IMG/VR virus record: IMGVR_UViG_3300012920_000318
Span: 1 to 21,958 of that record
Reading direction: 5' to 3' (one strand)
Length of the DNA: 21,958 nt
DNA from: a virus
The notes beneath the pieces are model-generated. The model saw only the letters and a list, made by a program, of their open reading frames with translations, searched no databases and had not been told where the DNA came from. The translations under genes were made by a program, and so were the position numbers. Positions 3,054 to 21,524 of this stretch are shown here, one piece after another (position 1 is the stretch's first letter; each line of letters opens with the position of its first letter).

Positions 3054-3071
3054 TTTGTTAATATGTCCATA

Positions 3072-3079
3072 TATTTATT
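3072..3079 (-). promoter_or_regulatory. T4-type late promoter box, AATAAATA, before the 213-residue virion gene
   Basis: AATAAATA on the minus strand overlaps the stop codon of the giant gene (TAA at 3080-3078) and ends 18 bases before the ATG at 3053. It matches the T4 late consensus TATAAATA at seven of eight positions. The spacing allows a leader of about a dozen bases. The identical 8-mer stands before gp6, which supports a real shared element. Confidence 0.55.
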
Positions 3080-6000
3080 AAGGTAGTTTTGTAGGACTAT
3101 TAAGCAAAAATGTTGCTTCTGGTCCTGTTGCTCCTTGAATCCCTTTTCCGTCACCTGCAGTGCTTGTTCCTTGGTTTACCCACACACGGCCAGTCTTACG
3201 CACTATCTCAACTTTACGTCCACTTGCTGGTGCAGTACTAAATGTAATTGTAGCATTTTCACCATCAAAAGTAAAGCCTGATGTTATTTTTGTGCCACCT
3301 ACAAATACTGTAACGTCTGCGCCATCTGAACGTGGAACAAATGCAGTTGAATCAGAATCAAACAGTGCAAATGCTGTAGTTAACCCATCTGCTATATGTG
3401 AACAGATTGTAGTTGTATCTGAATAACCTGGCACTGTTTGTGATGTGCCTGCATCTACAACTTCAGTCCCAATTGGATGATTGTTTAGTGCTCCAGTACC
3501 TAGGGTGCCTCTCATTAATTGTCCTAGACTATTTTCTCCTAAATCACGTGTAAAATAAGTGATTCTTTCTTTGTTTATAAACACAACACCTGGCAGGTTG
3601 TTGTCTGGATCTGGTGCAGGTAATATACTTGCATCATTCACAAACATTTCACTATCAGTAATTTTCAATGCTTTTGCTAATTTAGTATTGCTTGAATCTG
3701 CTATTCGTTTGTAGTGTGTTCTGTTAATCATGTCTTTGAAAACTCTGTATCCTATTGCCTCTGTGGTCTTGGTTGTATCAATTGATGTTACAACAATAAT
3801 ATCTGAGTTACTATAAGATGTTCTTGGAATATGAATTTTATTATTTTTTATAATATAATCTGTGCCTGCAATCTGCATGTCACCATTGTATGTTACCCAC
3901 AAATAATCAGTGTTAGTTGGCGTTCTAGATAAAGTGTAAAATCCTCCCCTGTTTGAATCTACTTGTGCTACTGGAGTATCAAATCCTAATTTGTAAACAT
4001 AAACTGTGTTGCCTCCTGATGCACCTGTGGCTGTCAAGTTTACAGTAGTGCCACTTAGACTGACATCAAATGTTGCAAGTTGATTGTCTGACACATGTCC
4101 ATATTGTGTGTGATTAATATTTGCTGTTTTTCCTGCAACATGTATGGTAGCAAATTCAAAATCATTTATAGTAGAGTCATTTGCACTTTCTACCAACACT
4201 TGATAGTATGCACCATCAAATTCACTTGAAGTAAGATCAAATGTATCTAAAGTTACTGAAGACGTGTCTAATGTTTGTGAAGCAATAAACTCAATGCCCA
4301 CGTTGTTAGTAGTTGCAGTTGAACTGCCAAGTTTTGAAACAATTCCAAACACGCCTACACTTGTTGAAGTTGAATTAACAATTTTTAAACTTAACGTTGA
4401 AGAAGCATGAGTTACAGTAAATGTATTTCTGGATGCGGAACCATCGGCTCCTACGGCATTGTAAACATTTATTGTAGGAGTTGATCCATTAAATCCTATT
4501 GTAATTTGTGAAGACTCAACACTTGTTCCATCGCTCACAGCAACAAATATTTCTGCTCCTCTAAAAATACTTGTGTCTAATTCGAATATAGTTTGAGAAG
4601 TTGACCCATTTGAGGTGTATTGCTTTGTAAATGATTCTTGATTAGAACTTAATGGAGACTCTGCATTTGTGTCAGTGCTTAGAACTGCCATTCTGTGTGC
4701 TTTAATTTTTGTTACATTGTCGAGTGCTGTCGCTGTAAGGCTCACTGATCCTGATGTAATACTAGATGTATAAGAAACAAAATCGGTTGTGCCTGTTGCA
4801 TGAACAGTTCCGTAGTTGGTACTACTAACATTATTTCCATCCGTAGTAACTGTAACTTGATCAACTTGAATGTTATCGTTTATATCAGTAGCAACAACAA
4901 AATATTGTGCAGAATTAATTGTTTCAGCACTGAAAGTATCAATAACTGTGCCTGAACTAGTCACAGGATCTTTTGTAATTAAAGTTTGATAAGTTCCTAA
5001 TGATGCATCAACTAGATTCGAACCTTTGAATATTTCTGTTCTTATTCCTAGTAAGTCATGATTTGTAAATGACGTTACTCTTATCTCATCATTTTCTGAC
5101 CCAAAAGATGTCAAAGTCAAATTGCTTCCTTCAATGAGATAATCGTGTCCTATCTTGACTACAATAGCAATCCCATCACCTGGATTTGGTCTTGTGTTGA
5201 AAAATATTACTCCTGTACCAGTTACCGAGGCACTATCTGCTGTTACATTGTTTTGATCTGCAGTATCATCAGATTGATCTGCTGTAATACCTAAACTGTT
5301 AAAGAACCAATCAACACCAAATGTTTGTCTACTTCCATTCAAATAAACTTCTACATCTGAGCCACTTGGAGTAGTTGCTGTATTAATAGTAGTAGGAACG
5401 TTAAATGCAAATGTGCTTCCATCTCCTTGATAGTATGCTGTATCTGGTGGATTTAATCTTTCCCCATTTCTTTCCACAATCACTGTATTGTGCAATGGAC
5501 CAAACTCTGCAGGAGTTTGTGACAAAGCAAAAGTTTTTGTAGAACCATCTGCTTTAATTGTTTGTGTGTTAACTTGTGAATATGTTTGTTCTCCTGCATC
5601 ACCATCAAATATTGTAATTTGTATTGTTGATCCACTTGCAGGTGCAGAAGATAAAGTAACATCAGTACTTGCACTATCCGATCCTTCTGATAAAGTTGCT
5701 GTAGTCACCACACCATTCACAGTTACAAATGCAGTCTTACTTAAATTCACTGTGCTGTCAGCAAGTGCAAACGGAATAGGTAAATTAAATACCGCAGTGG
5801 TTCCATCTCCTGTAAAGTTTCTTTTAATAGATATTTTAGATCCGCTTATACTAAAACTTTGAATTGTAATCAATTGTCCACTTGCTGGTGCACTAGTAAA
5901 CACCACTGTGTTGTTTGCACCAATAGAATAATCTGTTGATGAATCATTTTTGATTCTACGTCTCAAATTACCATCTACCCAAACAAACACACCATCAACG

Positions 6001-9000
6001 TCAGATGGCGTTTGTCCTATAGCAAACGTTGTAGTTGAGCCATCTCCTATATGACTGTTGGTTCTCATGATAGGTGAACCTTGTGAAGGATTAGTAAACA
6101 CCTTCATGTCTAAAGTATCAAAAGTAGACCCAGGCATTACTTCTTCTGGTGCGTGAGATGAATATTCGTCAACAAATGCATTGCCTTCACTTACTACATC
6201 AGTTGGCCTTGTGCCAGCCAAACTATTTGTAAATCCAACACCGTCAACATATTTGTCTAGACCTAATTCATAGGATGGTGTTGCTATGCCATCTTCATCG
6301 ATTATCTGTCCATCATATGGCACTGCATCATATGGTGCTTTATCATACGTGGCTTCTGTATCAAACTGTGGACCTAAAACTTTGGTTCCAGGATATTCAA
6401 GTCCGCTCATTAATTGTCCATATAACACTGTGCTTGAATCTTGTACTCCAGGCATTCCTGCTGAAGTTGAATAGTATGCTTTGATGTAATCAACTGCACT
6501 CCATTCTTCTAAATAATCAGTGAGTGTTGGTGTAGTTGAACTATCAGATAATGTTACTGCATCTGTAAATTGTTTGCCTGATGTAAATTGTTGTAAAACT
6601 TTATAAATGTCATTGCCAAATCTAATATTGTTTCCTGTGTAAGTCGTTTCTGCTTTCCACTCTGATATTGTGTCATTAACAATAATATTGTTCCCAGATA
6701 CTCTGTTGAACTGAAGTGTTGTGTTTATTTGCCTAATTTTATCATTGTCAATAACTGGATATAATTTTGCGGCAATGCCAGTTGAATCTTCTCTGCCTCC
6801 ACCACTCAAAGTTAGAGTTGGTGTAGTAGTGTATCCAGAACCACCGTTCGTAACAATTATTTTATTAATAGCACCGTTTGAAACGTAAGCAGTTGCTTTT
6901 GCACCTGTGCCTCCACCGCCAGATATTGTAATGATTGGCGCTTCTGTATATCCGCTACCACCATCTGCTATTAATATCTTTAATAGGCTTAATTTGTAAT
7001 TGTCTTTATAAATTTTACTTGGGTTGAGTGTGTATCTTGTGTCAAATGCAGAGTTATTCACATCAGGGGTATCATACTGTTCTGTGCTTGTATTCCAATA
7101 TGAAGCATTGTCAAAGTCTGTAACATCTGATCCAAATGTATCTGATTTAGCATAATTTACTCTGTATTGTCTTACCTTTGTATGGAATGGTTTTACTTCA
7201 TCAATATATTGTAAAAGTGCTTCTTGTTGATCTGGTTTATAAGTTGGATCAGTTGATAAATTTTTTAAATCATTTTCAACTGTCAAGAAAGATGTTTTTA
7301 TTGCCCAATCAATGTAGAGTTGTTCAGCCAAAATTTGTTGCAAACAATAGAACCAAAGTTTATTGTATTCTTCTTCTAAATCATCTTGATATATGTCGTC
7401 AAATATTCCAGTTAAAATGTTTTGTAACTCAGTAATAGGCTGTTGATCATAGTTTAATTGATCAAATGTATCACTGTCATATCCTAAAGCATTGTCTTTG
7501 TATGAATAAGCACTTTCTTTTATTTGAATTGTGCCACTGCCTAGGCCTATTTCTTTGTATTTTGCTGTGTCTATTTTTTCAAGCAATCTAAAATTACCGT
7601 CAAATGATGCATTTACTTTAACAATTTCACCTACATCTACCTTTGAATCATTTGGCAAAACATCGTTCTCTGTGCTTAATTTAAAATTAATTAAAGTATC
7701 TTTACTGTATCCAGAGGCGTACCAATCTGCATACGTCCAATATTGCGTGGTATCAAATGTTTGCACAAATGTTCTTGTGAATGTATTGTTTGATTGATAA
7801 GTGTAAATTGCCCAATAGCCATTTGAATCAGAATCTGTTGCTACCAAAACTCTAGTTCCTGTATCTAGTGTTGGTGTGTTAAATTTATTAAGATAGTTTA
7901 GTTCAGTAATATCTGCAACCTTTATGTCATATTCATTTGATGCCGCAGTAGGTTGTTCGTCTTTAAGTAAAAAGTTTTTTAAATTTTTTGTTGATACAAT
8001 CTTTTGTTTGATCAATACATTGTTGATGTTTTCTATCACTGCTGTCAGTACTATGGTTCTGTTTTGTATCATGGACTGACCATCTTCTACTCCATATTTT
8101 TGTGTATTTGAAAAAGTAGTATTTGGTATGTTATTACCAAATTTGTCTCTACCCACTAGTGAATCAATAAGTTTTTGTTTCAATATTGTGTTAGGTTTAG
8201 ATTTTGTATCACCTTCTTTAACAATTAACCATTCATCGTGTTTTGGACTTGGATCATCAACTGTACTCCATTCAACGTGATGCACAATGTTGCCATTGTC
8301 TAATAATGGATCAACGTTCACATAAGACACTGCATTGTTTTTAATAAATGCATTGTAAACATAACCATTGCCTATTGGATCTTCAATAAGTTTTTGAACT
8401 GTTAGAGCATCTAAAGTTCTATTTGGTACGTTAGGTACATCTACTTTATCTCGGACCCAGTAATAATATCTAGTAACAAGAGATTGAGTTTCAGCATCTA
8501 TAAAAGTATTGGTTGAATAATACCTTGTGTTGATTGCAATGCCAGAGTAACCTTGTACTCCATTGGCTGAATTGTTATTGTAAGTGTCTGGAGCCACATC
8601 TGATTCTATCCATTCAAACACATCTACTGTCGCACCAGGAAAAAGTTTGCCCCAATTATTATTTCTATACTCTAATGTGCCTTGTTCATACCATGTATAG
8701 ATTAATTTTTTTGTGTTTAACCAAAGTTCACCAACATGCTCTCTCCCCCATGCTCTATTGTAATCTAAAGTAGGTGCCGCGGCAGTTTGTGCATTTATTG
8801 AATCAGCATCTGTTCCTTCTAAAACTAAATTGTTGTAACTTGCTGGATCATGATCCGATATAAATTTTAATTCACTACTTGCTGGTCCAGGCAATTTTCC
8901 TTTAATTGGATCTATCCAATCTATAAATCCAACTGTTTTATTAGAATTTACATTGAAGAAATAGTTTTGTTGAAGTGCATATGGATCTACAAGATCTTCT

Positions 9001-12000
9001 TGTTGTGAAATAATTTCCCAACCTTTAGTTGTTGAAGTTCCCTTGTTGTATTCTGCCATTAATCCGCTGTTAACTGCTTTTGTGTCATCAAATGGAGCAC
9101 CAACAAATACACCAGCATTGCTGACTGATAGTCCAGTACCAAACTTATCACCAGCATCTACTGTGTTTGATTCTAGTTGTTGATCCAAAGCAAAATAATT
9201 TCCATACATGCCATACACTCTAGCAGTTCCTGATTCTGATTGTGGATCTATAAACCTTGTAGTGTCAAAATCAAAAGTAGTTTCAGTTAGAAGTGTTGAC
9301 CCATCGGCCTTGAATTTGTCGAAAGTAATATTTTTGTTGCCTGATGCATTTTTACTTGACACTGCTAAGACATCTGTAACTGGGTTCATAGTTACAAGTT
9401 CACCATATCTGCTATACTCACTTGGTGCATTAGAATCGATTGTTTGTTGTTGTGTGTATCTGTACACATCAAATACTGTGTTTGACTTAGGTGCTTCACT
9501 AAAAGTAATGTTTGATGTTGATCCATCTACTGAATAACTTCTTCCAGATGCAGAATTATCTGCAGAAATAACTGATGTATCAGCAGTTTCTAAATTACTA
9601 TCTGCATTACCCCCACCTGGTGTGCTCCAAGTCGTTGTACTATCTGCGGCAGTTTCAAACACTCCTATTTGATCTTCAGCAATAGGACTGAAACTCAAAC
9701 TGAATGATGTTGTAGATCCATCTGCTGTAAATGATTCTATGCTTTGTTTGTAATAATATACTCTACCTGTGTCTGGTGCTCCTGTTGGATTATATCCAGG
9801 TGCTCCAACTACAATTTTTGTAGCATCCGTGTTCATTGTAATAGATGATCCAAATTCAAGATCAGCCTGTTGAACGCTAGGTAATAATTTTGCAATTTGG
9901 ACAAATTTTCCATTGTCATTTGCATACACAAACACAGCACCAACATTTGAAGTTGCTCCAGTTCCTAATGTAGAATGGAAAGGGGCCCCAACTGCAAAAA
10001 TTTGTCCTGTCTTATCAACAGCAACACTTGATCCAAATTTAGCACCTGCCAATGCTTCTGCATCTTGTATGCTTCCAAAATAATCATATAGCAAAGTAGT
10101 TGAATTGTATTTGTAAACTTCTGCTCTGCCTTTGTTTGATTCAGAACCAGGCACACCAAACACAGCATAGTTGCCATCTCCAGACAATGCAACTGAAGAT
10201 CCAAAATTTTCATTTGCCGCAGGTGGGTTGCCTGTGACTGTTTGCACGACTGCCCATGTGCCACTTGCGTCTTTGTTTAATATTTCTGCATATCCTTCAC
10301 CACTCAGTGTAGTTTCTGCTGACGCAACAAAGCCAACTATCTCAGTAGAGCCATCAGTGCTTGTGCCAGTGACCTGATAATCTGTGCCAAGGATTGTGTC
10401 AGTTTCAATTGCTAACACATAAGTTGAACTGTTCCAAGATTTCACTGTGCCTGATCCAACTAATGAACTAGATGCATTGTAAATTTTTACTGTAGTGTTA
10501 ACTTTGAAATCTAAAGTAGAACTAAAGTCACCACCATCTAGTGTAACCACTTTAACAAATCCAGAGGCAAATGGTGCAGAGACTAACAACCTATCTTCAT
10601 TGTTATGTGCTAGTGCTAACGCATGTCCATATCTGTCAAATTCTGTTTTTTTGGTCGCACTTGAATTTTCAGTTGATGTTGCTGACTCTTCTATGGTCAT
10701 TGCAATATCACTTTCAATTGATTGCACTGTGTATTTTAAACTAGAAGCAGTAATAATTCTATCTCCTGCTTTTAATTCTTCGGTAAACAAAGTATTGTTT
10801 CCTGTGACCGAACTACTTCCTGATGTAAATGAATATGTTCCATTTAAGTTTGTAGATGCATTACTCACATGTGATGGATTTATAGTGAATGTGCTTGTAA
10901 ATTGTCCGTTATCACTACGTGTCTCAAGATGTAATTTTCCTCCTTGATCTCCAGGAGCGCCTACCCAAACGTTTCTACCTGTGGCGTCTGCCGCAATGGA
11001 ATGGCCATATTCACTAAATGCTTGTCTATTGATGTCATACTGCGTTATTTTTTCTTTGTATGGTAATGTGTTTTGATAGTTTACCCAACGTTTAGTGTAA
11101 TCAGTTTCATAATTGTTTGTAACTGAAACAATATCATTTTTTCTCCAACCTCTCAAAGGAGCAGACGTGTTTATAAATGATGTGTCTGTAAGTTTAAGTG
11201 AAACTAATTTTAACAGATTACCGGACTTTAACATTGATGACCCATCACCTTCTGGTAACTTCTCAGCCAGTTTCACAGAAAATTCATTAGGAGCATCTAC
11301 TGTGCTGTCCATTGTTGCTAAATCAGGAATCTGATATATTCCGTCTATAGATGCATCAACGTCTCTTATTAATACTAAATCATCTTTTGCAAGTCCATGC
11401 GGCTTGTCTGTTGTAAGTCTTACTTGATCTTCACCAAGTAAAGTTGAGCCATCATCTTCATATTTGTCAAACCTGCTGATCTTGATTCCTGTTTCAGTAA
11501 CTCTATATAGGTTCCATTGATTGGTCAAATCTTTTGCTACCCAGATTGTTGTGCCTACCACATAAGTTGAAGCCGCTACATCACCAATAAGTTCATTGAT
11601 ATCTATTTTAGCCACATTGACATATTCGCTGTTGATAGGTCCTGCATTCTTGAACTTGAACACAGACAAATGTGAATTAAGTCCTTGATGCACTGAGTGA
11701 TCATAATTTTTAAATGGTGTGCCTACATAATTGCTAGGCTCAATTCTTAAATTATTTTTTGTAATTTGCACAGCAGGATCGTCTGTTGTAAGTGTGTTGC
11801 CGTCTAAAAGTTTCAACAGTTGTGGATTTTCACCAAACGAATTTTTGTTTAGTCCAAACTCTATATCTTCTTGTGTTCTTCTTCCACCATATCCACCTGT
11901 TCTAAACGCCCATTCTTCATACACATTGTATTTGTTAGTTTCACTTGCTCTAAATTGTGCGTTTAACAATTTTGTAATAGAATTTATTGTTCCTTTTTCA

Positions 12001-15000
12001 CGTATAAATCCTTGATAAAACTTGTATTGCGAACTTTCGTCCATACCTAAATCTTCTAAATAGCCTCTTGGTTGATAACCAATTAGATGCCTTGCTAAAG
12101 TTTGCTGACCTTCATCGAAATTGTCTGAATCTAAATTATAGAAATCCTCAAACTGTGCAGATTTATAATCAAAGTTAGGAAGTAAAGCACTTTGTGGAGC
12201 AACATCTTTAAGATTCCAATCAAGATTGTTAAATTTAGTTTTTCCTGCGTGTCGTTTTTTAGCAACATAAAATTTTGCTTGATATTTTACAACATCTCCT
12301 ACGTTGTAATCTTTGTCTGACATCCAATCTTCAATTTTTGCTTCGTCAAAAACAAATCCAGGAGCAAACAAGTCACCATTCCAATCTGAAGTTTTGAATC
12401 CAGTAAGTTTTAATCGCTCTTGCCTAAATCCTAGTGCTGGGTCATACAATATATCAGAGAACACAGTTGAATTGTCAAACAATATTACATGCTCTTTTTG
12501 TATGATGTTAAATTTTGCAAAATATATTCCATCTTCGTCAGGCCTTGTTGTAAGGTTAGTAGTATTTCCTTGTCTATTCATGTTAATATTTTGTAATGGA
12601 ATACTTGTACCTTCCTGCTGTGACACCAAATATCCTTCATATGGATTGATCAATGTGTCTACCACACCGTTAGCATTTTCGTAAGTAATAGATTCAGATG
12701 CAGGCGATAGTGATATCACTGTGCCTACTGCCCAATTTTGAGTTGACCAAAATAAAAATTCTTTTATGCTTAGAGTCCAATCAGTATTTGTGTTTAGATC
12801 TCTTGAATAACCATCAAAAACAAATCCTTGGGTCTTAAGATATTGTTCATAACCTTGTATAAAGTTAGCAACTTCTTGCCTTGTCTTATATTCAGTTCCA
12901 TAAGGCACAAGTTTTACAGATGTTCTAAATTCTGTGTACTTGGCAACTTGAATGCCGCCAATTAAAGGAAGTGCTGAGCCAATTTCTTTAAGATTTGTTT
13001 CTTCAAAACTGTCACCAGCAGTAAAGGTTGTATTAACACGGTAAAATGCATTGCCATTTTTAACAATAGAACCTGCAACATAAAAACCATTTGGCTGCCA
13101 TTCAAAAAATTCTTCTGAACTTTGTCCTACAGCAATGTTATTACTTGCTTGACTTTTTATTGGCTCATTAATTTTAAATGATCTTTGTGTAGGATCATAG
13201 CCTATAACTTTGTATCCGTTTGCTGTTTTTTGTACTATGACTCCAGAGTATGCAGAAGTTTCAACTGGCGTGCTTTGATGTAAAAATATTTTGTAATTTT
13301 CTTCAGGAATAAACACTTTGTTTGATGTTGATCCTGGAGAAACTGAATCTGCAATTACTTTCAAATTGGTTTTATCTGAAAATCCTGCTAGTCTGTATCC
13401 AAGGTTTAGTTTCAATTTGCCTACTGGCTCGGTAAAGTTATTTTTTATATCTAAATTTTTTCCTTTTAGGTATTCAACAATCATTACATGATAACCTGTT
13501 GCAAAATATTCCTGTGATACACCATCGCTGTCTTTATATGTGCCAGCATAATATACAAAGTCTTTTGGTTGCACCGCAGTGCCAGTCTCATTATAAATGT
13601 ATTGTCCTGTTGGATTTTGATATATTCTTGCAGTATCCCATAATGTTCCGAAGTATCTTGCAGGTGAAGTAAGAGCAGATATTATTTGCTGTGCAAATGG
13701 CCAATCGGAAGATCTTCTCCATGCTGTTTCAGCCGGAGCATTATCTCCTGCTTTGAAATCAAGTTTCATTTCGCTTTGACTTGCAATAATTCTATCTACT
13801 ATAAAATCATTTGGCGGACGCAAGTTGCCTTGACTATCAACTGGAAGATAATCTGTTAGATCTCTTCTTGTGTATTTGGTATAATTTCCTTTTCTATCTC
13901 CTTGATTAATGTGTCCTTTTTCAAGGTCATTCCATAAAATATCGTTGCCAGACGTATATGGAGCAGAACCATATCGTGAATCCCACCAAGTTGGTTTTTC
14001 TGCGAAGCCTAACATTTCCCATGGATGTGTGTGTGGACGATCAGTATCATACATGTCTTTGTATATCCCACGCCAATATCCTTTAAGTGTTTGCCCTGTT
14101 AGTCTTGATCCTACTTGTCCATAGTTCCATGTAAATGAATCTTCAGCGTCGAAAAGATTGTGAGACGTATAATCAATCTGATTGTCACCTGTCCAATCTA
14201 AGAACAATTTGCTTTCTATCTCAGTCCACTCACTTTTTGTCCATGGAGAAAATCTAAAATCCCCAGGACGACCATATAGATCATGTAAGTTTTTTTCGTC
14301 GTATGTAACTTTGATATTATTGTAAATTCTTTTTTCAAGTTCAAGCAACAAGTCATCTCTAATATCGCCATATGCTTTTGTAAGTGATCCATCATGTCCT
14401 TGTATTACTTCCACCGCTGTTGAATCATTCACTTGATTTCTATATGTGTTGTCAACATACTTGCTTGGTTTGTAGGCAGGATATAATCCTAACTTTGATG
14501 GAGTAGGAGGAATGTGACTACCATCAGTGTCTGCATATTCTCTTATCTCAATTTTGTCTCCAATTGTGAAACTATAATCAGTTGTAAAAGTTATTGTTGC
14601 ACTTGTTTTATCAAATGTATAATCTGCTCCATGAACTGCTTGAACATCATTTACCCAAACATACACAGCATTATCACTTAGTGTTGTTTTATCAAAAACA
14701 GCACTCAATCCATAAGTCTTATTGCTATTGTCACTTACTGTATAAGATAGTTTTGTAAAGTTTTCACTCCATCCTATCATGTCTGAGTGATAAAATGCAA
14801 ATTCTTCTGATTTGTTTGCACTTACTAGTTTGATGATAGCATCGACTTTGTCACGCACTGTGCCATCTGGAGCATTATCAATATTTTTAATAAATGATTG
14901 TTTAAATTTTGCATATTCTTTCGATACAAATTTTGTTGCAGAATAAAAGTTTGCATTTGGATGTGTCAGTAAAAACGTTGCTAAAGGAATAGATCCTGAA

Positions 15001-17459
15001 TGTTGCATGATTCTTCTGCCGTATTTTTTTGTTTCATGCAAGTCTTTTAAATTAGTAGATCCTGGTTGCGTGCCTGTAAAGCCTGGCAAATCTTCTGTAA
15101 TGCTTAACACATGATTGTTTAACTCTCCTAAAGTCAAAGTCTCTACAGCGTCATTCAATCCGTTTCTTTCTAAGTTATCTGGTACCTCATAATATCCATT
15201 TTTGTTTTTTGTTGAGTATGGTGCATAAGTTTCAAAAACAATTTTATCACCTATTGTTCTACTTTTAATAAACTGTACAAATTTGCTTTTGTCTTTTGTA
15301 ATAATTGTATAATCAGTGGTAGATGTTTTCTTAACATTGTTTACAAACACATCTATTTCCAAATCTGTTACATCAGATATGTTATCAAACGTTTTAAGTT
15401 TGAAAGTTTTAAGTTCATCTTTGACCACAATCACATCTATGACTCTTTGTTTTGTAAGAAGATTTTGTTTAGTCCAACCGTTTCTTAATTGTGTGGTAAC
15501 AGTGTTATTTACGGTGCTGTCAACACCTACTTCAACATCAATGATGTTTTGCTTATAGTATGCAGACTTTGTAAAAATAGTGTTCTTTTGAGCGTTTGTT
15601 ACATCCAAATATGTAACTTTGTCAGTGCTCAAAGTGTTGTTGAAAACAATATCTGCAACTGTGCCAAAGTTTTCATACTTAATTTTTATTCCATATTCTG
15701 TGTCATTGGTGCCTGTAGTAGATTGTGCAACTTCAAATAATGTAGTGCCTACAAATGATGATGCAGAATAAGTTGTAGTGTCAGTTAATGCAGTGCCTGA
15801 ACTATTGAACAGATCAAACAATGGAGCCTGTTGTACTTTAGTTTTTTGTTGGCACTCTACCCAAGACGTTCCGTTGAATCTATACTGTTTGCCTTTGCTA
15901 TTTGTACCTGCTTCAACAATTACTGTGTTTCCTTCTACAGGTTGTTCTGCCAAAGCAAGATCTAAATACACAACATCTGTGCTATCCACATTCACAAATG
16001 TCACTTCATAAATGTTACTTTTGACATCACCATCAGTGTCATTCTGGAATATTACTCTATCACCTTGTTTGAGTTCAACACCATCAATAAAATGTCCTAA
16101 ACTGCCATTAACAAAACTAAATGCATCAGATGTTGCAGTCTCAATAGCACGGACAGAACGTAACCCTACATTTCCATAATTGAATAATTGTATGTTGCCT
16201 TCAAATTGCACGATTGGTCTTTTGGCTCTCTGAGTTTGATCTAGATTGACTGTGTGCCCGTTATACGTTGCTGTGTTTGTGAGCACCGACTCATGAAACC
16301 ATCTGTTGGACCTTGACCATGCATTAAAGTCTTTTGAATTTCTGTTGATAGTAAAATAGTCTTTTTTGACAGGCACATCACTTCCTGCATCCCATGGATC
16401 TTGATCAAAGTTTTGTGTCCCGTCTTGGTCCCAAACTACAGTTGATGTTGCTTCTGAAAATTCTTCAGGTACTATCATCCTTGCAGTATCAACAAGTACA
16501 ATTTCATTGCCCACACCTTCAACATAATATTCTTTGTTTTTATATGCCGCTGGTATTGTGCCTGCAAATTTAATTTTAAGTCCATTTTCAAATACAACTG
16601 ATGCTTCGGTAGTGTAATCTTTTTTGCCTAATATTTCTGTAGTAATATCAACCGTCGTGAATCCATCCTCAAGATCTTCAATTAAAATATTTCCTTGCAT
16701 TGATGAGTGATTGCCGCAGGCATAAAAAAGTATGTCTGGCAGGTCACTGCTTACATCTGCTTTAGGCACTGTGAACGTAACTGTCCCTACATCTGCGCCA
16801 TTGTTGTCAACAAAATCATCTTCATATTGTAATGTTGATCCGTCTACTTTAGATGTTTTAATGTAAAAAGGATGTCCTTTTGCATTTACTTCAAATTTAT
16901 ATGTGTTGCCTCTGTATAAAGTTAGTGTTGGATTATCGCCTGTGTATCCACTAAAATTGTATGCTCCTGCGGCATTGTTCTTAACTTTTATTGTGCTTGT
17001 ACTTCCTGGTTTTGAAATATCAACCTGCACAACACTCGGCCCTGTTGGCACCCAATAGTAGTTTCTATAATTTACAAGTGCGTCAATGTCTACTGGCATA
17101 CCCCATGAATGACTTTGTTGATTGAAAAGTCTATCATGATTGCTTTTGTTTCCGCCAAGAAATTCTATTTGATTAACAAGATCATTATATGTGCCAAAGT
17201 ATTCAACTGTACCATCATCTTTGACATAGTTGACACTTGGTTCTAGTTGGTAGTTTTGTCTGTCACTATTAAGTTCTGTAAAATAAGTGTCAGTTGGTCT
17301 AAAACTAGGTCCTTTCTTAGATCCTACAAATCCACTTATTTTTTCTAGTTCACCTTTTTGTGTCCATTGATCTAACGTTGCATTTAAAAACTTTTTATTA
17401 CGTTCAGTTTGAAAAACTTCAGGTAACAGTTGAGTTGTAGTTCTCGAAACTGTTGGCAT
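3078..17459 (-). CDS. Giant multidomain baseplate/tail structural protein (4793 residues)
   Basis: One uninterrupted 14.4-kb frame starts two bases after the gp6 stop (TAA-TC-ATG). The N-terminus (MPTVSRTTTQLLPEVFQTER) is typical of a very large virion protein in marine T4-like phages. Modules in order are: conserved N-terminus, 1-150; cupredoxin-like domain, about 155-262; conserved structural region to about 2100, with CBM5/12-like units at about 1454 and 1712; seven FG-GAP repeats, 2151-2800; a mixed region to about 3450; a GSGY pair, 3494-3558; a third CBM-like unit near 3601; 'DGST..F' beta-modules at about 3800-4040; three modules of about 115 residues, 4165-4494; an INKERITYF / LMRGTLGTG block, about 4620-4680; and the C-terminus ending GKGIQGATGPEA...KLP. 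No signal peptide, transmembrane span or catalytic motif is seen. In T4, gp7 and other wedge genes follow gp6, so this may be a gp7-like wedge scaffold fused to adhesive modules. That role is inference; its structural nature is much firmer. Confidence 0.9.
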   Translation of the reverse strand: MPTVSRTTTQLLPEVFQTERNKKFLNATLDQWTQKGELEKISGFVGSKKGPSFRPTDTYFTELNSDRQNYQLEPSVNYVKDDGTVEYFGTYNDLVNQIEFLGGNKSNHDRLFNQQSHSWGMPVDIDALVNYRNYYWVPTGPSVVQVDISKPGSTSTIKVKNNAAGAYNFSGYTGDNPTLTLYRGNTYKFEVNAKGHPFYIKTSKVDGSTLQYEDDFVDNNGADVGTVTFTVPKADVSSDLPDILFYACGNHSSMQGNILIEDLEDGFTTVDITTEILGKKDYTTEASVVFENGLKIKFAGTIPAAYKNKEYYVEGVGNEIVLVDTARMIVPEEFSEATSTVVWDQDGTQNFDQDPWDAGSDVPVKKDYFTINRNSKDFNAWSRSNRWFHESVLTNTATYNGHTVNLDQTQRAKRPIVQFEGNIQLFNYGNVGLRSVRAIETATSDAFSFVNGSLGHFIDGVELKQGDRVIFQNDTDGDVKSNIYEVTFVNVDSTDVVYLDLALAEQPVEGNTVIVEAGTNSKGKQYRFNGTSWVECQQKTKVQQAPLFDLFNSSGTALTDTTTYSASSFVGTTLFEVAQSTTGTNDTEYGIKIKYENFGTVADIVFNNTLSTDKVTYLDVTNAQKNTIFTKSAYYKQNIIDVEVGVDSTVNNTVTTQLRNGWTKQNLLTKQRVIDVIVVKDELKTFKLKTFDNISDVTDLEIDVFVNNVKKTSTTDYTIITKDKSKFVQFIKSRTIGDKIVFETYAPYSTKNKNGYYEVPDNLERNGLNDAVETLTLGELNNHVLSITEDLPGFTGTQPGSTNLKDLHETKKYGRRIMQHSGSIPLATFLLTHPNANFYSATKFVSKEYAKFKQSFIKNIDNAPDGTVRDKVDAIIKLVSANKSEEFAFYHSDMIGWSENFTKLSYTVSDNSNKTYGLSAVFDKTTLSDNAVYVWVNDVQAVHGADYTFDKTSATITFTTDYSFTIGDKIEIREYADTDGSHIPPTPSKLGLYPAYKPSKYVDNTYRNQVNDSTAVEVIQGHDGSLTKAYGDIRDDLLLELEKRIYNNIKVTYDEKNLHDLYGRPGDFRFSPWTKSEWTEIESKLFLDWTGDNQIDYTSHNLFDAEDSFTWNYGQVGSRLTGQTLKGYWRGIYKDMYDTDRPHTHPWEMLGFAEKPTWWDSRYGSAPYTSGNDILWNDLEKGHINQGDRKGNYTKYTRRDLTDYLPVDSQGNLRPPNDFIVDRIIASQSEMKLDFKAGDNAPAETAWRRSSDWPFAQQIISALTSPARYFGTLWDTARIYQNPTGQYIYNETGTAVQPKDFVYYAGTYKDSDGVSQEYFATGYHVMIVEYLKGKNLDIKNNFTEPVGKLKLNLGYRLAGFSDKTNLKVIADSVSPGSTSNKVFIPEENYKIFLHQSTPVETSAYSGVIVQKTANGYKVIGYDPTQRSFKINEPIKSQASNNIAVGQSSEEFFEWQPNGFYVAGSIVKNGNAFYRVNTTFTAGDSFEETNLKEIGSALPLIGGIQVAKYTEFRTSVKLVPYGTEYKTRQEVANFIQGYEQYLKTQGFVFDGYSRDLNTNTDWTLSIKEFLFWSTQNWAVGTVISLSPASESITYENANGVVDTLINPYEGYLVSQQEGTSIPLQNINMNRQGNTTNLTTRPDEDGIYFAKFNIIQKEHVILFDNSTVFSDILYDPALGFRQERLKLTGFKTSDWNGDLFAPGFVFDEAKIEDWMSDKDYNVGDVVKYQAKFYVAKKRHAGKTKFNNLDWNLKDVAPQSALLPNFDYKSAQFEDFYNLDSDNFDEGQQTLARHLIGYQPRGYLEDLGMDESSQYKFYQGFIREKGTINSITKLLNAQFRASETNKYNVYEEWAFRTGGYGGRRTQEDIEFGLNKNSFGENPQLLKLLDGNTLTTDDPAVQITKNNLRIEPSNYVGTPFKNYDHSVHQGLNSHLSVFKFKNAGPINSEYVNVAKIDINELIGDVAASTYVVGTTIWVAKDLTNQWNLYRVTETGIKISRFDKYEDDGSTLLGEDQVRLTTDKPHGLAKDDLVLIRDVDASIDGIYQIPDLATMDSTVDAPNEFSVKLAEKLPEGDGSSMLKSGNLLKLVSLKLTDTSFINTSAPLRGWRKNDIVSVTNNYETDYTKRWVNYQNTLPYKEKITQYDINRQAFSEYGHSIAADATGRNVWVGAPGDQGGKLHLETRSDNGQFTSTFTINPSHVSNASTNLNGTYSFTSGSSSVTGNNTLFTEELKAGDRIITASSLKYTVQSIESDIAMTIEESATSTENSSATKKTEFDRYGHALALAHNNEDRLLVSAPFASGFVKVVTLDGGDFSSTLDFKVNTTVKIYNASSSLVGSGTVKSWNSSTYVLAIETDTILGTDYQVTGTSTDGSTEIVGFVASAETTLSGEGYAEILNKDASGTWAVVQTVTGNPPAANENFGSSVALSGDGNYAVFGVPGSESNKGRAEVYKYNSTTLLYDYFGSIQDAEALAGAKFGSSVAVDKTGQIFAVGAPFHSTLGTGATSNVGAVFVYANDNGKFVQIAKLLPSVQQADLEFGSSITMNTDATKIVVGAPGYNPTGAPDTGRVYYYKQSIESFTADGSTTSFSLSFSPIAEDQIGVFETAADSTTTWSTPGGGNADSNLETADTSVISADNSASGRSYSVDGSTSNITFSEAPKSNTVFDVYRYTQQQTIDSNAPSEYSRYGELVTMNPVTDVLAVSSKNASGNKNITFDKFKADGSTLLTETTFDFDTTRFIDPQSESGTARVYGMYGNYFALDQQLESNTVDAGDKFGTGLSVSNAGVFVGAPFDDTKAVNSGLMAEYNKGTSTTKGWEIISQQEDLVDPYALQQNYFFNVNSNKTVGFIDWIDPIKGKLPGPASSELKFISDHDPASYNNLVLEGTDADSINAQTAAAPTLDYNRAWGREHVGELWLNTKKLIYTWYEQGTLEYRNNNWGKLFPGATVDVFEWIESDVAPDTYNNNSANGVQGYSGIAINTRYYSTNTFIDAETQSLVTRYYYWVRDKVDVPNVPNRTLDALTVQKLIEDPIGNGYVYNAFIKNNAVSYVNVDPLLDNGNIVHHVEWSTVDDPSPKHDEWLIVKEGDTKSKPNTILKQKLIDSLVGRDKFGNNIPNTTFSNTQKYGVEDGQSMIQNRTIVLTAVIENINNVLIKQKIVSTKNLKNFLLKDEQPTAASNEYDIKVADITELNYLNKFNTPTLDTGTRVLVATDSDSNGYWAIYTYQSNNTFTRTFVQTFDTTQYWTYADWYASGYSKDTLINFKLSTENDVLPNDSKVDVGEIVKVNASFDGNFRLLEKIDTAKYKEIGLGSGTIQIKESAYSYKDNALGYDSDTFDQLNYDQQPITELQNILTGIFDDIYQDDLEEEYNKLWFYCLQQILAEQLYIDWAIKTSFLTVENDLKNLSTDPTYKPDQQEALLQYIDEVKPFHTKVRQYRVNYAKSDTFGSDVTDFDNASYWNTSTEQYDTPDVNNSAFDTRYTLNPSKIYKDNYKLSLLKILIADGGSGYTEAPIITISGGGGTGAKATAYVSNGAINKIIVTNGGSGYTTTPTLTLSGGGREDSTGIAAKLYPVIDNDKIRQINTTLQFNRVSGNNIIVNDTISEWKAETTYTGNNIRFGNDIYKVLQQFTSGKQFTDAVTLSDSSTTPTLTDYLEEWSAVDYIKAYYSTSAGMPGVQDSSTVLYGQLMSGLEYPGTKVLGPQFDTEATYDKAPYDAVPYDGQIIDEDGIATPSYELGLDKYVDGVGFTNSLAGTRPTDVVSEGNAFVDEYSSHAPEEVMPGSTFDTLDMKVFTNPSQGSPIMRTNSHIGDGSTTTFAIGQTPSDVDGVFVWVDGNLRRRIKNDSSTDYSIGANNTVVFTSAPASGQLITIQSFSISGSKISIKRNFTGDGTTAVFNLPIPFALADSTVNLSKTAFVTVNGVVTTATLSEGSDSASTDVTLSSAPASGSTIQITIFDGDAGEQTYSQVNTQTIKADGSTKTFALSQTPAEFGPLHNTVIVERNGERLNPPDTAYYQGDGSTFAFNVPTTINTATTPSGSDVEVYLNGSRQTFGVDWFFNSLGITADQSDDTADQNNVTADSASVTGTGVIFFNTRPNPGDGIAIVVKIGHDYLIEGSNLTLTSFGSENDEIRVTSFTNHDLLGIRTEIFKGSNLVDASLGTYQTLITKDPVTSSGTVIDTFSAETINSAQYFVVATDINDNIQVDQVTVTTDGNNVSSTNYGTVHATGTTDFVSYTSSITSGSVSLTATALDNVTKIKAHRMAVLSTDTNAESPLSSNQESFTKQYTSNGSTSQTIFELDTSIFRGAEIFVAVSDGTSVESSQITIGFNGSTPTINVYNAVGADGSASRNTFTVTHASSTLSLKIVNSTSTSVGVFGIVSKLGSSTATTNNVGIEFIASQTLDTSSVTLDTFDLTSSEFDGAYYQVLVESANDSTINDFEFATIHVAGKTANINHTQYGHVSDNQLATFDVSLSGTTVNLTATGASGGNTVYVYKLGFDTPVAQVDSNRGGFYTLSRTPTNTDYLWVTYNGDMQIAGTDYIIKNNKIHIPRTSYSNSDIIVVTSIDTTKTTEAIGYRVFKDMINRTHYKRIADSSNTKLAKALKITDSEMFVNDASILPAPDPDNNLPGVVFINKERITYFTRDLGENSLGQLMRGTLGTGALNNHPIGTEVVDAGTSQTVPGYSDTTTICSHIADGLTTAFALFDSDSTAFVPRSDGADVTVFVGGTKITSGFTFDGENATITFSTAPASGRKVEIVRKTGRVWVNQGTSTAGDGKGIQGATGPEATFLLNSPTKLP
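3420..3602 (-). other. INKERITYF/RGTLGTG module near the C-terminus of the giant protein
   Basis: Residues about 4620-4680 hold PGVVFINKERITYF, then LGQLMRGTLGTG, then HPIGTEVVDAG. This ordered set (…INxERITYF…L..L.RG..GT…H..G..V.D) recurs in structural proteins of marine T4-like phages and probably forms a compact beta-domain. Its function is not known to me. A final 'DG.TT.F' beta-module and a short Gly-rich tail follow. Confidence 0.6.
3978..4967 (-). repeat. Three tandem modules of about 115 residues in the giant protein
   Basis: Residues about 4165-4494 contain three diverged copies in a row. They are anchored by AQYFVVATD, GAEIFVAVSD and GAYYQVLVES, at roughly 4910, 4558 and 4213 on the DNA, so the spacing is about 345 bases. 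The copies share a leading D-x-F/L strand, then A-x-[YI]-x-V, an N-G or A-G turn, a Y-[GN]-x-V segment in two of the three copies, and a closing L-x-[AI]-x strand followed by a V-rich strand. The copies are too diverged to be recent DNA duplications. They look like beta-sandwich spacers or adhesive modules. Confidence 0.7.
6786..6980 (-). repeat. GGSGYT double repeat in the giant protein
   Basis: Residues 3494-3558 contain IADGGSGYTEAPIITISGGG and VTNGGSGYTTTPTLTLSGGG, joined by TGAKATAYVSNGAINKI. This GGSGYT..P.[IL]T[IL]SGGG unit is a widespread short beta-repeat in phage and marine bacterial surface proteins. It is probably a linker or stalk element. Confidence 0.75.
9060..11009 (-). repeat. 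Seven FG-GAP motifs: predicted integrin-alpha-like beta-propeller
   Basis: Seven motifs with the [FY]G..[ILV]....(D/N)......V.(G/S)(A/V)P pattern begin at residues 2151 (YGHSIAADATGRNVWVGAPG), 2277 (YGHALALAHNNEDRLLVSAP), 2419 (FGSSVALSGDGNYAVFGVPG), 2475 (FGSSVAVDKTGQIFAVGAPF), 2536 (FGSSITMNTDATKIVVGAPG), 2685 (YGELVTMNPVTDVLAVSSKN, degenerate) and 2773 (FGTGLSVSNAGVFVGAPFDD). Repeats 3 to 5 are spaced 56-61 residues apart, the usual blade length. The wider gaps hold insertions, including a 'DGSTTSF' beta-module between repeats 5 and 6. Seven is the blade number of the integrin-alpha propeller, so a complete propeller is a natural reading. Classical DxDxDG calcium loops are mostly lost. Confidence 0.85.
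16674..16997 (-). other. Cupredoxin-like domain with type 1 copper ligand pattern
   Basis: Residues about 155-262 of the giant protein form a beta-rich segment with YRGNTYKFEVNAKGHPFYIK early and ILFYACGNHSSMQGNILIED at the end. His196, Cys248, His251 and Met255 match the order and C-x2-H-x3-M spacing style of type 1 copper sites, in which one upstream His joins a C..H..M loop. Related YYYC.NHSGMGG segments occur in many marine phage virion proteins. The fold is likely; real copper binding is not shown by sequence alone. Confidence 0.7.
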
Positions 17460-17461
17460 GA

Positions 17462-20400
17462 TTAATACCCGCCGGAACTAGATGAACTTGAACTAGAACT
17501 TGAAGAACTTGATCCACCACTATATGACGTTGAAGAAGATGTTGTTGTGGTTGTAGTGCTAGTCCCTGAACTACCACCAGTTGTTGCTGACACTGTGTCA
17601 GCAGTTGTGGTAGCAGATGTTATCACTGTTCCACTTGCTTTTATGTTTCCTTGTGAGATGCTATTGATTATTTCTACATTGTCTACAGTGGCACCACTGA
17701 TGAATATTTCATCTGAGTTAGATTCAATTTGGAACAATGATCCAAAAGCAGTATCCTGTTTGTTAGGAACAATTACAATTGAACTTATTTGCGGAGCAAG
17801 TGAGTTATGAATGTAAGTTGAAAGTTCGGTGTAGAAAAATGAATCACCAAATGTCCAATTTTCAATAGCAAAGTAATTGTTAATTGCGTTTATTACCTGC
17901 GTCTTGATATCACTATCAGTTATTGTTAGGTCTTTATTTTTGATTACTTTAAATGTTGCTTGTAAGTTGTTGTCAGCATTTGGACCAAATAATAATTTAT
18001 ATTTGACAGGTCTATAAACAATTTCGTCTGATACATTCTTAAATTCACTCAATGTTGGATTGTAAGATGTTCTTAAGGATGCAGTTGTTGGAGCAGGTGG
18101 AATACTTCCCACTTGTCCATTGAATATCCAACTTCTATATTCTGTGTCATATGCAGTTGTGAGAATATGTAAATCAATTAGATTACTTACACTAGGATCA
18201 ATTCTTCTGTCATATCTTGCCGCGTGTTCATAATTGTAATTTAAGTTATCTCTTCCAAGTGATGCCTTATATGTGTCAGATACATTTATTAAAGATCCTT
18301 TTGTAGAGTCATATTGTTGTATTGTACCTGCGTTGAAAAAATGAAATAATTGTCCATTGCTATACTGTGTAAGATCTAAACCTGACCCACCACTTGATAA
18401 AACAAAGTCTGTGCTTGGCACAACATCAAAGTAATCTGATGCCTTTGTTGTATCTTTTTTGAAATACACATATTTTGAACTTGTATTTTTATTTGGATCA
18501 ACAACACTTGTAAAAAGATCAGGATTGTCTACTACACCATCATCATCTGTATCATTGAACGACACGGCTACTTCTCTGGTGTCATTAAATCCTGTTGAAA
18601 GCACTCTATTACCTACTATTGCAAAACTATAATCTTCTGCAAGTTGCACAGTAGAATCAGGCATAGTGTTAAACTTCAACACTTTAATTTGGTCTTGCAC
18701 TATTTTGCCAGTAGAAGCATCAAATATTTTTTGATCTTCATCATAAAAAAATCTGTTTTTTGTTGCAGACCTAAACACATAATTTGTATTTCTAACTTTT
18801 ATTGTGTACACATTGTTCGTTGCTGTAAATTGAAAAAGCCAACTTGCATCTTTATTTGCATCTGCCGTGCTACCTTGATCACCTAGGTTGAAAGCACTGT
18901 TTAATTTAATGTTTTCAGCATTTATAAACTGCCATGAACTGGTATCAACATTGTAAGTCAATCCAAATGTGTTGTAATTTTTAATTGCATCTATCAGTAA
19001 ACTTTCTACAGACGTTGGAATGACTGTTGCATAGGTTGGAATAATTTCTTTAATGATTGCATTGCTAGGCACTTTATCTGATAGTGTAATTGGTCCTTTG
19101 CCATCAGTAAAATTGCCTTTTCCATAATTAGATCCATCTAATTTAACTTCAACAACTTTAGTCCACAATACTGATTGAGAGCCTGCGTGACCTGCCTGTC
19201 CTGCCATCAATGTACCATTAGCCATAAAATGTTGTCCTGCAGGTGGCTCAAATTTAATCAAAGCACCAGGCTTGATGTATTTTAAATTTGTTGTAGTAAA
19301 ATTACCTACAGCAAGTGGTCCAGTCTCTTTGAAATAACCTGTATAAGTGTTTGTTGCTTCCGTGCTTAGATTCCAAGTGTAAGCAGTGCCTGTGTTTTGC
19401 CTTGTGTATGCATCATAATAAAAATCTCTTATTCCTACACTTTTAAGAAGGGGAGTAATGGTGTTGTTGATAATGCCTGTAATTTCAGATGTTGATGCAA
19501 AAGAAAAGGATGAAGTTGGCTCTGTCGTTTCTTTGTAAACCACACCTTCATCTGCAAAAATATTAGTAGAAGAATACGCTCCTGTTGGATCAATCAAATC
19601 GTAGTATCTTGAAATTCCAGATGCTGTTCTGTTGACTGCTTTTGTTTTTGCTATACCTTGAAACTGTGTTAGTGGCACTACTTGATAGTCTTCAGCAGTG
19701 GTCATTCTATTGTTGGCATAATAAGCCTGAGGTGCTTTAGTTTTGATATCTTCGTTTGATTCAGTTGCACTTGCATTGTCAACAGTTGTTACTAGATCCA
19801 TAGTCAAGGTAACTGTGTTCACTTGTCCTTTAGCATTTCTATATTCTAACGATGCAGTTATGCCACGCATGTCTCTTGGTCTGATTGTGAAAGTTTGATT
19901 GATAGAACTTCTATAGTATGTTCTAAATAATCCATTTGGATTTTCTCCAAACACACCATCCGCAAACACAAGGTCAATGGCGTCACCTGCTCTAGTGTTT
20001 ACACTGAATAATTTTCTAACTGATTCAGACAATGAATTATAAATCACGTTGTTTCCTGTTATTGCAGGAACCTTGGTCCATGCATTGTCTAATGTTCCAT
20101 TTTCTGTAAGATCATACAACCAAACATCTGAATTATTAATGTTGTTTTTATCCACTGAAACTATTGTGTTAGGTGATGGATCTGTAACTGTGAATTCTGA
20201 AAATCCTAATTCACCTTGTTTAAACATCATAAAAAATCCTGTGTTTTCTGATTGGTTGCCTTTTCCATCTGCTCTGTATAAAAATCCAAATCTATTGCCA
20301 GGAATAGGAGATTCTTCATAGATATAATCTTGATTTCTGAATGTTGAACTTACTAATTCAAAAGGCATTGGTTGTGAATTAACAGTTCTTGTAAATTTAA

Positions 20401-20995
20401 GAATTGGCACATCTAAATTTGTACTTGCAAATTTATATTGTTGAGTGTTCACTCCTCCTATTGTGCCTTTAATTGCAGGTGAACCAAATTTTTGTGTGCC
20501 ACTCAAGGTACCATTCAAGACTGCAATAAATTGTTCTAACCAATTTGTGTTTGTTGGATCATTCCAACCAATTATTTTATTTGATAAGTCTGTTCCTGCA
20601 GAATCTGTAATACCTTCTGTAGTGCTGATGCTTGTTACTTTTAAAAGTCCTGAACCTGCTTGGTTACGTTTTGGCACATAACTTAAAAGTCTTGCAAGTC
20701 TTAAAATTGAATCTCTTCTTTCTGCTGTGTCAATAAAGTTTTCTCTTGCATTTAGATCAGTTCTGAATGATAAATTCTGTCCAAGATATGCAATTAAATC
20801 AATAAGTGCAATATATTCTGATGATTCTATGTAATCATTGAAATCTTCTGGATAATTGTTTTGTAGATACTGTATCATAGTTCTGCGAATTGTGTCAAAA
20901 TCATATGATAAGAAATCACTTTGCTGGAATGATCTATAGATCTTTTGCCAGTCTTGTGATATTAATAAACTATTCTGTCTATCTGTTGTGGCCAT
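17462..20995 (-). CDS. gp6: Baseplate wedge protein gp6 (baseplate J-like), enlarged
   Basis: In T4, gp6 forms the ring of wedge dimers that joins the baseplate periphery to the hub and rearranges at sheath contraction. The N-terminus is the marine gp6 type (SQDWQKIYRSFQQSDFLSYD, then ESSEYIALIDLIAYLGQNLS). The J-like core has VFADGVFGENPNGLFRTYY near 342 and NRMTTAEDYQVV near 428. The C-terminal gp6 block is at about 1000-1118 (INNYFAIENWTFGDSFFYTE, then LSTYIHNSL and FGSLFQIES). At 1177 residues it is much longer than T4 gp6 (about 660). Extra sequence lies mainly in the middle, with an EF-hand-like loop DTDDDGVVDNPD at 815-826, and in a Ser/Thr/Gly tail at about 1120-1177. It starts 40 bases after gp25, preceded by an AATAAATA box and no Shine-Dalgarno. 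Confidence 0.93.
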   Translation of the reverse strand: MATTDRQNSLLISQDWQKIYRSFQQSDFLSYDFDTIRRTMIQYLQNNYPEDFNDYIESSEYIALIDLIAYLGQNLSFRTDLNARENFIDTAERRDSILRLARLLSYVPKRNQAGSGLLKVTSISTTEGITDSAGTDLSNKIIGWNDPTNTNWLEQFIAVLNGTLSGTQKFGSPAIKGTIGGVNTQQYKFASTNLDVPILKFTRTVNSQPMPFELVSSTFRNQDYIYEESPIPGNRFGFLYRADGKGNQSENTGFFMMFKQGELGFSEFTVTDPSPNTIVSVDKNNINNSDVWLYDLTENGTLDNAWTKVPAITGNNVIYNSLSESVRKLFSVNTRAGDAIDLVFADGVFGENPNGLFRTYYRSSINQTFTIRPRDMRGITASLEYRNAKGQVNTVTLTMDLVTTVDNASATESNEDIKTKAPQAYYANNRMTTAEDYQVVPLTQFQGIAKTKAVNRTASGISRYYDLIDPTGAYSSTNIFADEGVVYKETTEPTSSFSFASTSEITGIINNTITPLLKSVGIRDFYYDAYTRQNTGTAYTWNLSTEATNTYTGYFKETGPLAVGNFTTTNLKYIKPGALIKFEPPAGQHFMANGTLMAGQAGHAGSQSVLWTKVVEVKLDGSNYGKGNFTDGKGPITLSDKVPSNAIIKEIIPTYATVIPTSVESLLIDAIKNYNTFGLTYNVDTSSWQFINAENIKLNSAFNLGDQGSTADANKDASWLFQFTATNNVYTIKVRNTNYVFRSATKNRFFYDEDQKIFDASTGKIVQDQIKVLKFNTMPDSTVQLAEDYSFAIVGNRVLSTGFNDTREVAVSFNDTDDDGVVDNPDLFTSVVDPNKNTSSKYVYFKKDTTKASDYFDVVPSTDFVLSSGGSGLDLTQYSNGQLFHFFNAGTIQQYDSTKGSLINVSDTYKASLGRDNLNYNYEHAARYDRRIDPSVSNLIDLHILTTAYDTEYRSWIFNGQVGSIPPAPTTASLRTSYNPTLSEFKNVSDEIVYRPVKYKLLFGPNADNNLQATFKVIKNKDLTITDSDIKTQVINAINNYFAIENWTFGDSFFYTELSTYIHNSLAPQISSIVIVPNKQDTAFGSLFQIESNSDEIFISGATVDNVEIINSISQGNIKASGTVITSATTTADTVSATTGGSSGTSTTTTTTSSSTSYSGGSSSSSSSSSSSSSGGY
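17465..17640 (-). other. Low-complexity Ser/Thr/Gly tail of gp6
   Basis: The last 58 or so residues of gp6 are Thr/Ser/Gly-rich (TTTTTTSSSTSYSGG) and end with 13 consecutive serines before GGY. The serines use mixed TCN and AGY codons, so this is not a simple trinucleotide run. The segment is probably disordered. Confidence 0.85.
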
Positions 20996-21035: not shown

Positions 21036-21524
21036 TTAGTAGGATCCAGCACTTGCAACTGCAGAAGTATCTCCTGCTTGTATGGCATTAGATGTTACTT
21101 GTAGTCCTTGTTCCTGGTCAAAACCTAGCGTTAATGATTCTTTAATTTGATATGGCACATATAATAAGTCCAATGCAATACTGAGTCCATATTCTGCTTG
21201 AGTAACTGCCAATACTTCAAGCACCCATCTTGGATCTCTATCTACTATCTCAATTATATCCTCTTCAACTGCTTTACTGACTTCACTTGTAAAAGGCTCA
21301 AATAATAAGTCGTATATGATTGTGCCGTAATCAGGAAGTTCTAATTTTTCGCCTTTTTTAATATAGAGAGCATTTAACAAGTCTGTTCTTGCAAGTTCAT
21401 AATCATACAGTGTGTTTGAGTCAAAATCTCTATTGACAGTAGAAAATCCTACATAAGTCTTTAGGTTGCGTGGAGATCCAATTTTGTCAGACGTTGTAGT
21501 TTTTGTTAGTTTTACCTTTGCCAT
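21036..21524 (-). CDS. gp25: Baseplate wedge protein gp25-like (TssE/gp25 family)
   Basis: This 162-residue protein belongs to the gp25/TssE family, the wedge component that contacts the sheath and central hub in contractile machines. The hallmark blocks are LLNALYIKKGEKLELPDYGT (about 49-68), YDLLFEPFT (71-79), and DRDPRW (95-100) where T4 gp25 has YEPRI. The central acidic residue of the conserved EPR triad is therefore Asp rather than Glu. A C-terminal extension after residue 135 is Ala/Ser/Gly-rich (QAGDTSAVASAGSY) and has no T4 counterpart. The start follows the PAAR stop by one base (TAA-T-ATG) with AGGA at 21529-21532, four bases upstream, which implies coupled translation with the PAAR gene. 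Confidence 0.92.
   Translation of the reverse strand: MAKVKLTKTTTSDKIGSPRNLKTYVGFSTVNRDFDSNTLYDYELARTDLLNALYIKKGEKLELPDYGTIIYDLLFEPFTSEVSKAVEEDIIEIVDRDPRWVLEVLAVTQAEYGLSIALDLLYVPYQIKESLTLGFDQEQGLQVTSNAIQAGDTSAVASAGSY

Follow-up and report, generated by a model that had tools for sequence, protein, structure and literature searches.

The best-known FG-GAP propellers are those that form the ligand-binding heads of animal integrins, where the alpha heads are closed seven-bladed rings and the integrin N-terminal strand completes blade 7. FG-GAP proteins are already known in phages, both as stand-alone proteins and within annotated wedge proteins of two cyanophages. In the literature we covered, which is incomplete, we found no description of an FG-GAP domain in a phage baseplate, cyanophages and jumbo phages included. 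Here we analysed a stretch of 21,958 nucleotides (positions 1 to 21,958 of IMG/VR virus record IMGVR_UViG_3300012920_000318; hereafter the window), in which a giant protein related to virion proteins of cultured jumbo phages is predicted to carry such a propeller within its core.

A giant gene next to gp6 and its FG-GAP motifs

The giant gene lies on the minus strand, with genes for gp6-like, gp25-like and PAAR-like proteins upstream of it. The features of this region were as follows:

3078..17459, minus strand: giant virion protein with the propeller, 4793 aa (open frame; orthology to RaK2, PA5oct and other jumbo phages)
12204..12344, minus strand: CBM5/12-like small module, residues 1706-1752, in the core upstream of the propeller (Pfam PF02839, E 3.4e-7)
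17462..20995, minus strand: gp6-like baseplate wedge protein, adjoining the giant gene (phrog_10646, E 0)
21036..21524, minus strand: gp25-like baseplate wedge protein (PF04965, E 0.0014, below cut-off; phrog_261, E 1.1e-7)
21526..21801, minus strand: PAAR-like tip protein (PF05488, E 9.8e-6, just below cut-off; phrog_281)

A Ser/Thr/Gly run of about 40 residues (window ~17465-17590) ends the gp6-like protein. At the far end of the window (53-580) lies a gene for a 175-aa protein that matches phrog_2297, named DNA endonuclease, with E 2.5e-5; its HxD-type sequence is presumably more like that of a 2-oxoglutarate/Fe(II) oxygenase.

Outside the propeller, the giant protein has orthologues in RaK2, GAP32, PBECO4, XaC1, Vibrio 2.275.O, PA5oct, SCTP-2, Atu_ph07 and Phosso. 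It matched phrog_10938 with 1192 bits, and BLAST matches to RaK2 spanned residues 12-3441 of the window protein. The core is orthologous on both sides of the propeller to the giant virion proteins of RaK2 (ORF070), GAP32, PBECO4, PA5oct, Atu_ph07 and SCTP-2, and the giant gene comes directly after gp6 both in the window and in those jumbo-phage records in which the neighbouring gene is annotated as coding for a wedge protein. The PA5oct orthologue is marked in its record as detected by ESI-MS/MS, so the giant protein is a virion component in that phage. Relatives of the window were found on contigs of up to 245 kb, and the clade thus includes jumbo phages. Host names taken from MAG contigs (Pelagibacter, Rickettsiales, Porticoccaceae and others) were set aside, because phage contigs can be wrongly binned.

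In T4 the gene directly after gp6 is gp7, and this shared gene order suggests a link between gp7 and the window protein. T4 gp7 has 1032 aa as against 4793 aa, and no profile similarity to it was detected in three core regions (hhalign probability <1%). A model of core residues 1000-1900 (mean pLDDT 83.7) gave no overall fold match in the PDB at E 0.001. Only CBM5/12-like modules gave credible matches, and the other core fold-search matches were discounted. The module at residues 1706-1752 superposed on a phage Milano baseplate chain (8fqc; Z 8.7, 1.1 Å over 45 residues) and on a chain in the phage 7-7-1 tail-fibre entry (9rkv; Z 8.2), the two matches lying at 1.1-1.3 Å over 45-46 residues and being limited to this 45-residue module, with the rest of the window protein unmatched. 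A second CBM5/12 or chitin-binding-like module lies at residues ~1447-1498 (window ~12966-13121). Because the link to gp7 is one of gene order only and the modelled core region has no overall fold match, we call the giant protein no more than wedge-like.

Scanning the whole 4793-aa protein for FG-GAP-like motifs gave seven, starting at residues 2151, 2277, 2419, 2475, 2536, 2685 and 2773, and none elsewhere. Each was assigned by its motif together with its conservation in relatives:

10953..11009, minus strand: blade 1 FG..GAP motif, residues 2151-2169
10572..10631, minus strand: blade 2 FG..GAP motif, residues 2277-2296
10149..10205, minus strand: blade 3 FG..GAP motif, residues 2419-2437
9981..10037, minus strand: blade 4 FG..GAP motif, residues 2475-2493
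9798..9854, minus strand: blade 5 FG..GAP motif, residues 2536-2554
9357..9407, minus strand: blade 6 motif, degenerate (YGELVTMNPVTDVLAVS), residues 2685-2701
9093..9143, minus strand: blade 7 FG..GAP motif, residues 2773-2789

These are exactly the residues at which the original prediction had placed seven FG-GAP motifs, and their number is far above the shuffled expectation: over 2000 shuffles of the 686-aa region the motif count averaged 0.32 and never went above 4, compared with the 7 real ones. The window protein matched Pfam FG-GAP_2 (PF14312; E 1.1e-15, 58 bits against a cut-off of 23, four significant stretches) and gave no match to the classical FG-GAP model (PF01839); by profile assignment, its repeats are members of PF14312 and not of PF01839.

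Predicted fold, blade number and loops

AlphaFold2 modelling of residues 1800-2960, using 87 aligned sequences of which most share 22-32% identity with the window protein, predicted with high confidence a complete seven-bladed integrin-alpha-like propeller in the giant tail protein (mean pLDDT of the whole model 76.5, pTM 0.75). Blade stretches were mostly near or above pLDDT 90, and the low-confidence stretches were mostly inserts. With the ring model as query, all 50 Foldseek PDB matches listed were integrin alpha chains, and VIA-align superposed model residues 2132-2817 on integrin alpha-M with Z 41.7 and 2.7 Å over 359 residues. The structural alignments began at model residue 333, and most of them started at integrin residue 1. 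The ring and its first strand were delimited as follows:

9036..11066, minus strand: seven-bladed FG-GAP propeller, residues ~2132-2808 (AlphaFold2 model; structural match to integrin alpha heads)
11040..11057, minus strand: N-terminal strand, residues 2135-2140, at the place of the integrin alpha ring-closing strand (DSSP and alignment starts; pairing putative)

Since the model superposes on closed rings, the predicted ring is probably closed as well. The original prediction of one closed seven-bladed domain is thus supported by structure prediction, the modelled fold matching closed integrin alpha heads; the span proposed for it, 9060-11009, runs from motif 1 through motif 7, and the folded ring is slightly longer. 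In a search of PDB sequences with the propeller profile, integrin alpha-M reached only E 0.12. Antibody light chains also appeared in that search (E 0.007-0.1, via the blade-5 insert) and were judged spurious, because the values were weak and restricted to this insert.

The blade number was followed across relatives by scanning IMG/VR with two core regions, which yielded 160 loci, one of the regions giving at least 596 matching stretches. In the alignment of 87 sequences, the FG glycine was conserved in 82-87 rows at each of the seven positions. When each blade was scored by a profile made from the other six, a test that guards against forcing by the alignment, median scores were 18-29 bits versus 0-1 for shuffled copies, with segments centred on the aligned motif and thus somewhat favourable to them. 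Counting units above 8 bits in the 146 proteins with both flanks gave 7 in 50 proteins, 6 in 62, 3-5 in 16 and 0 in 18; none of the 146 had eight units, and none had units outside the site. Three held-out sequences that are complete across the site and come from a collection absent from profile building (L183, L184 and L189) each contained exactly seven evenly spaced units. Because the seven positions are conserved, eight units never occur and the three held-out sequences also have seven, sequence comparison supports a blade count fixed at seven within detection limits, with variable spacing. Exactly seven blades, proposed originally from the window alone, therefore appears to be a family trait, the number not varying freely among propeller-bearing homologues (87 aligned and 3 held-out).

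Two other accounts of the motifs were weighed against the closed ring. S, T, G, D and N are abundant in the giant protein, and motifs might arise by chance in low-complexity Ser/Thr/Gly-rich sequence; this reading is already refuted by the shuffles, the Pfam match, the predicted fold and the conservation of the motifs in relatives that are mostly only 22-32% identical. If the motifs are true repeats, the domain could still be open, eight-bladed or of a different fold, and eight C-D-like strand pairs can indeed be read from DSSP when the hairpin strands that flank the ring are counted. The extra pair, however, consists of the host hairpin and the strand at the place of the integrin alpha closing strand, no relative has an eighth FG-GAP unit, and the superposition on closed seven-bladed rings spans the whole domain at 2.7 Å. 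We therefore regard anything other than a closed seven-bladed ring as very improbable.

For comparison of loops, strands were taken from DSSP of the window model and carried to the relatives by the alignment. The A-B loop, from FG to GAP, had a median of about 5 aa, and in none of 609 cases was it longer than 25 aa. Additions collected elsewhere: 44-49% of relatives exceeded 25 aa in the C-D loops of blades 3, 4 and 5, and 46% did so in the B-C loop of blade 2, and the B-C loop of blade 6 was long in all of them. The window protein has three large inserts, all predicted with low confidence by AlphaFold2:

10644..10880, minus strand: insert between blades 1 and 2, residues 2194-2272 (low-confidence model stretch)
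10293..10574, minus strand: insert in the B-C loop of blade 2, residues 2296-2389 (model and loop statistics)
9468..9746, minus strand: insert in the C-D loop of blade 5, residues 2572-2664 (model and loop statistics)

Among the proteins compared, the blade 1-2 insert and the blade-2 insert were found only in the window's own clade, and a few further relatives have segments similar to the blade-5 insert. These statistics, with fixed A-B loops and variable other loops, agree with the suggestion that the inserts between blades represent additional displayed segments. CBM5/12 matches were also seen inside the propeller region of three relatives (L070, L121 and L165), which suggests that modules of the carbohydrate-binding type have been inserted there as well.

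The insertion site and its history

On the core, the ring is flanked by the two strands of a beta-hairpin, each assigned by DSSP and by the same strand in propeller-less sisters:

11070..11084, minus strand: host beta-hairpin first strand, residues 2126-2130
9003..9020, minus strand: host beta-hairpin second strand (WEIISQ), residues 2814-2819

The hairpin is empty in four propeller-less sisters (L054, L081, L087 and L088). At the site L054 reads GWAVYTYN-GAT-WDRTRQQSAKVDI, and its counterpart L066 reads WGVYTFN, then the ring, then AWNLTRQQPKVDV; a comparable pair of segments was seen in PA5oct, L124, L173, SCTP-2, Atu_ph07 and Phosso. Comparison of sisters that have the ring with those lacking it defines its borders, so that the whole ring sits in one hairpin turn, and the turn of one conserved beta-hairpin is, from these sequence comparisons, a well-supported insertion site. 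In another relative (L035, locus 2660-4306) there is no propeller, and the same turn is occupied by a YHYH domain (PF14240, E 8.3e-31).

The cultured jumbo phages also differ from the window at this site. None of the nine with an orthologue has FG-GAP units there, and the site is either shorter (226-531 aa in seven of them versus 950 in the window) or, in Atu_ph07 and Phosso, filled by about 1550 aa of other sequence, with GGxGY-type repeats in Atu_ph07. Repeats of the form GGxGYTxxPxV, like those filling the site in Atu_ph07 and Phosso, occur elsewhere in the window protein (residues ~3495-3560, window 6780-6977).

A tree built from 95 rows of core sequence by a quick search under LG+G4 contained a branch with 99% support, on one side of which stood the nine cultured propeller-less phages with three contigs and on the other side 83 rows, 79 of them with the ring. 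At least four ring changes are needed on this tree, one at the deep split, whose direction the core tree does not give, and three later. The three later changes (L087; L054 together with L081; L035) are best read as losses of the ring. With the ring absent in four relatives and replaced by YHYH in L035, the module is exchangeable on a conserved carrier, only one replacement being clear.

Proposed role and comparison with known systems

In our view it is rather likely that the ring serves as a binding module, facing outward and exchangeable between lineages, and that the protein carrying it is a scaffold of the baseplate-wedge type in a jumbo-type contractile phage. From the integrin fold, the variable loops on a fixed ring and the dropping or replacement of the ring while the core persists, we infer that the ring is displayed outward and binds a ligand, and it would sit at the baseplate periphery. 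The orthology of its carrier to virion proteins and the CBM5/12-like modules of the core also fit this proposal. In this mechanism the giant protein would serve as the large scaffold, and the ring, inserted as one unit in the hairpin turn, would hang head-like from the core on a two-strand stalk. Facing outward, it could during adsorption contact a host-surface ligand or, perhaps, a virion partner. The invariant short A-B loops would hold the blades together, and the long lineage-specific additions on the other loops would set what the ring contacts. Because the hairpin turn is empty in some relatives and filled by YHYH in another, it may act as a socket for exchangeable modules, whole modules being swapped between lineages.

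The main rival to this proposal is that the ring is a structural or assembly platform to which another virion protein docks, for instance a fibre or the wedge beside it, with no host contact. Beta-propellers often act as protein-protein platforms, retention of the ring in 79 of the 83 clade members is compatible with a structural role, and the core modules are of a type known from phage baseplate and tail-fibre chains. Against such a platform, the ring has apparently been lost in three lineages with core and hairpin retained, one of them with YHYH in the loop, and the loop additions vary by lineage. On balance we consider a purely docking role unlikely, although it deserves to be kept in mind. 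The displayed binding module that we favour would make the ring a concrete host-contact candidate for the clade, in which we found no named isolate. A wider reading, in which a large clade of uncultured jumbo phages recognises hosts by an integrin-like head, with the loop domains as variable ligand site and modules exchanged in the socket, is possible but put forward only tentatively. Comparison with empty sites allows what was a vaguely understood giant structural protein to be described as a core whose docking loop is defined.

Among phages, FG-GAP repeats also occur in S-TIM5 gp054, in Vibrio nt-1 and in a 409-aa frame of Atu_ph07, but in separate genes or on other carriers, and the annotated wedge proteins of S-MbCM6 (7022 aa) and S-H9-1 (1539 aa) that contain them are other carrier proteins as well. 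In some of these cases the annotation is that of a virion or wedge protein. The searches made revealed no relation between these carriers and that of the window. A tblastn search of the phage collection with the propeller gave no match at 1e-5; relaxing the threshold to E 10 brought up S-TIM5 and Phosso. The 7022-aa protein of Synechococcus phage S-MbCM6 (L180, 50779-71847), annotated gp8 baseplate wedge (T4-GC_108), matches the S-TIM5 FG-GAP protein at six places and is another giant wedge protein with such repeats. Sinorhizobium phage Phosso (PV764938) has about 40 FG-GAP_2 matches at ~48000-69000 and 92000-94000, in frames of 3702, 3182, 429 and 398 aa, its giant wedge-like protein being without a propeller.

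Compared with the integrin alpha head, the modelled ring shares the seven FG-GAP repeats and the fold of the whole domain, including the N-terminal strand, and both have extra segments inserted in their loops. Integrin alpha chains carry calcium-binding loops of the DxDxDG type, whereas no DxDxDG motif was found in the window; nine of the 87 relatives have one such string each, several of them outside the ring. The integrin head is followed by thigh, calf and membrane segments, and the window ring by conserved phage core; the window repeats, moreover, fit PF14312 rather than PF01839 and sit inside a phage core protein. Because the calcium motif is absent from the window and the flanks are phage core, we do not regard the ring as a member of the integrin alpha family. 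In most of this broad environmental clade, a predicted integrin-type fold with its blade number held at seven is built into a virion protein and conserved there, and work on the cultured jumbo phages, which have no propeller at this site, would have missed it.
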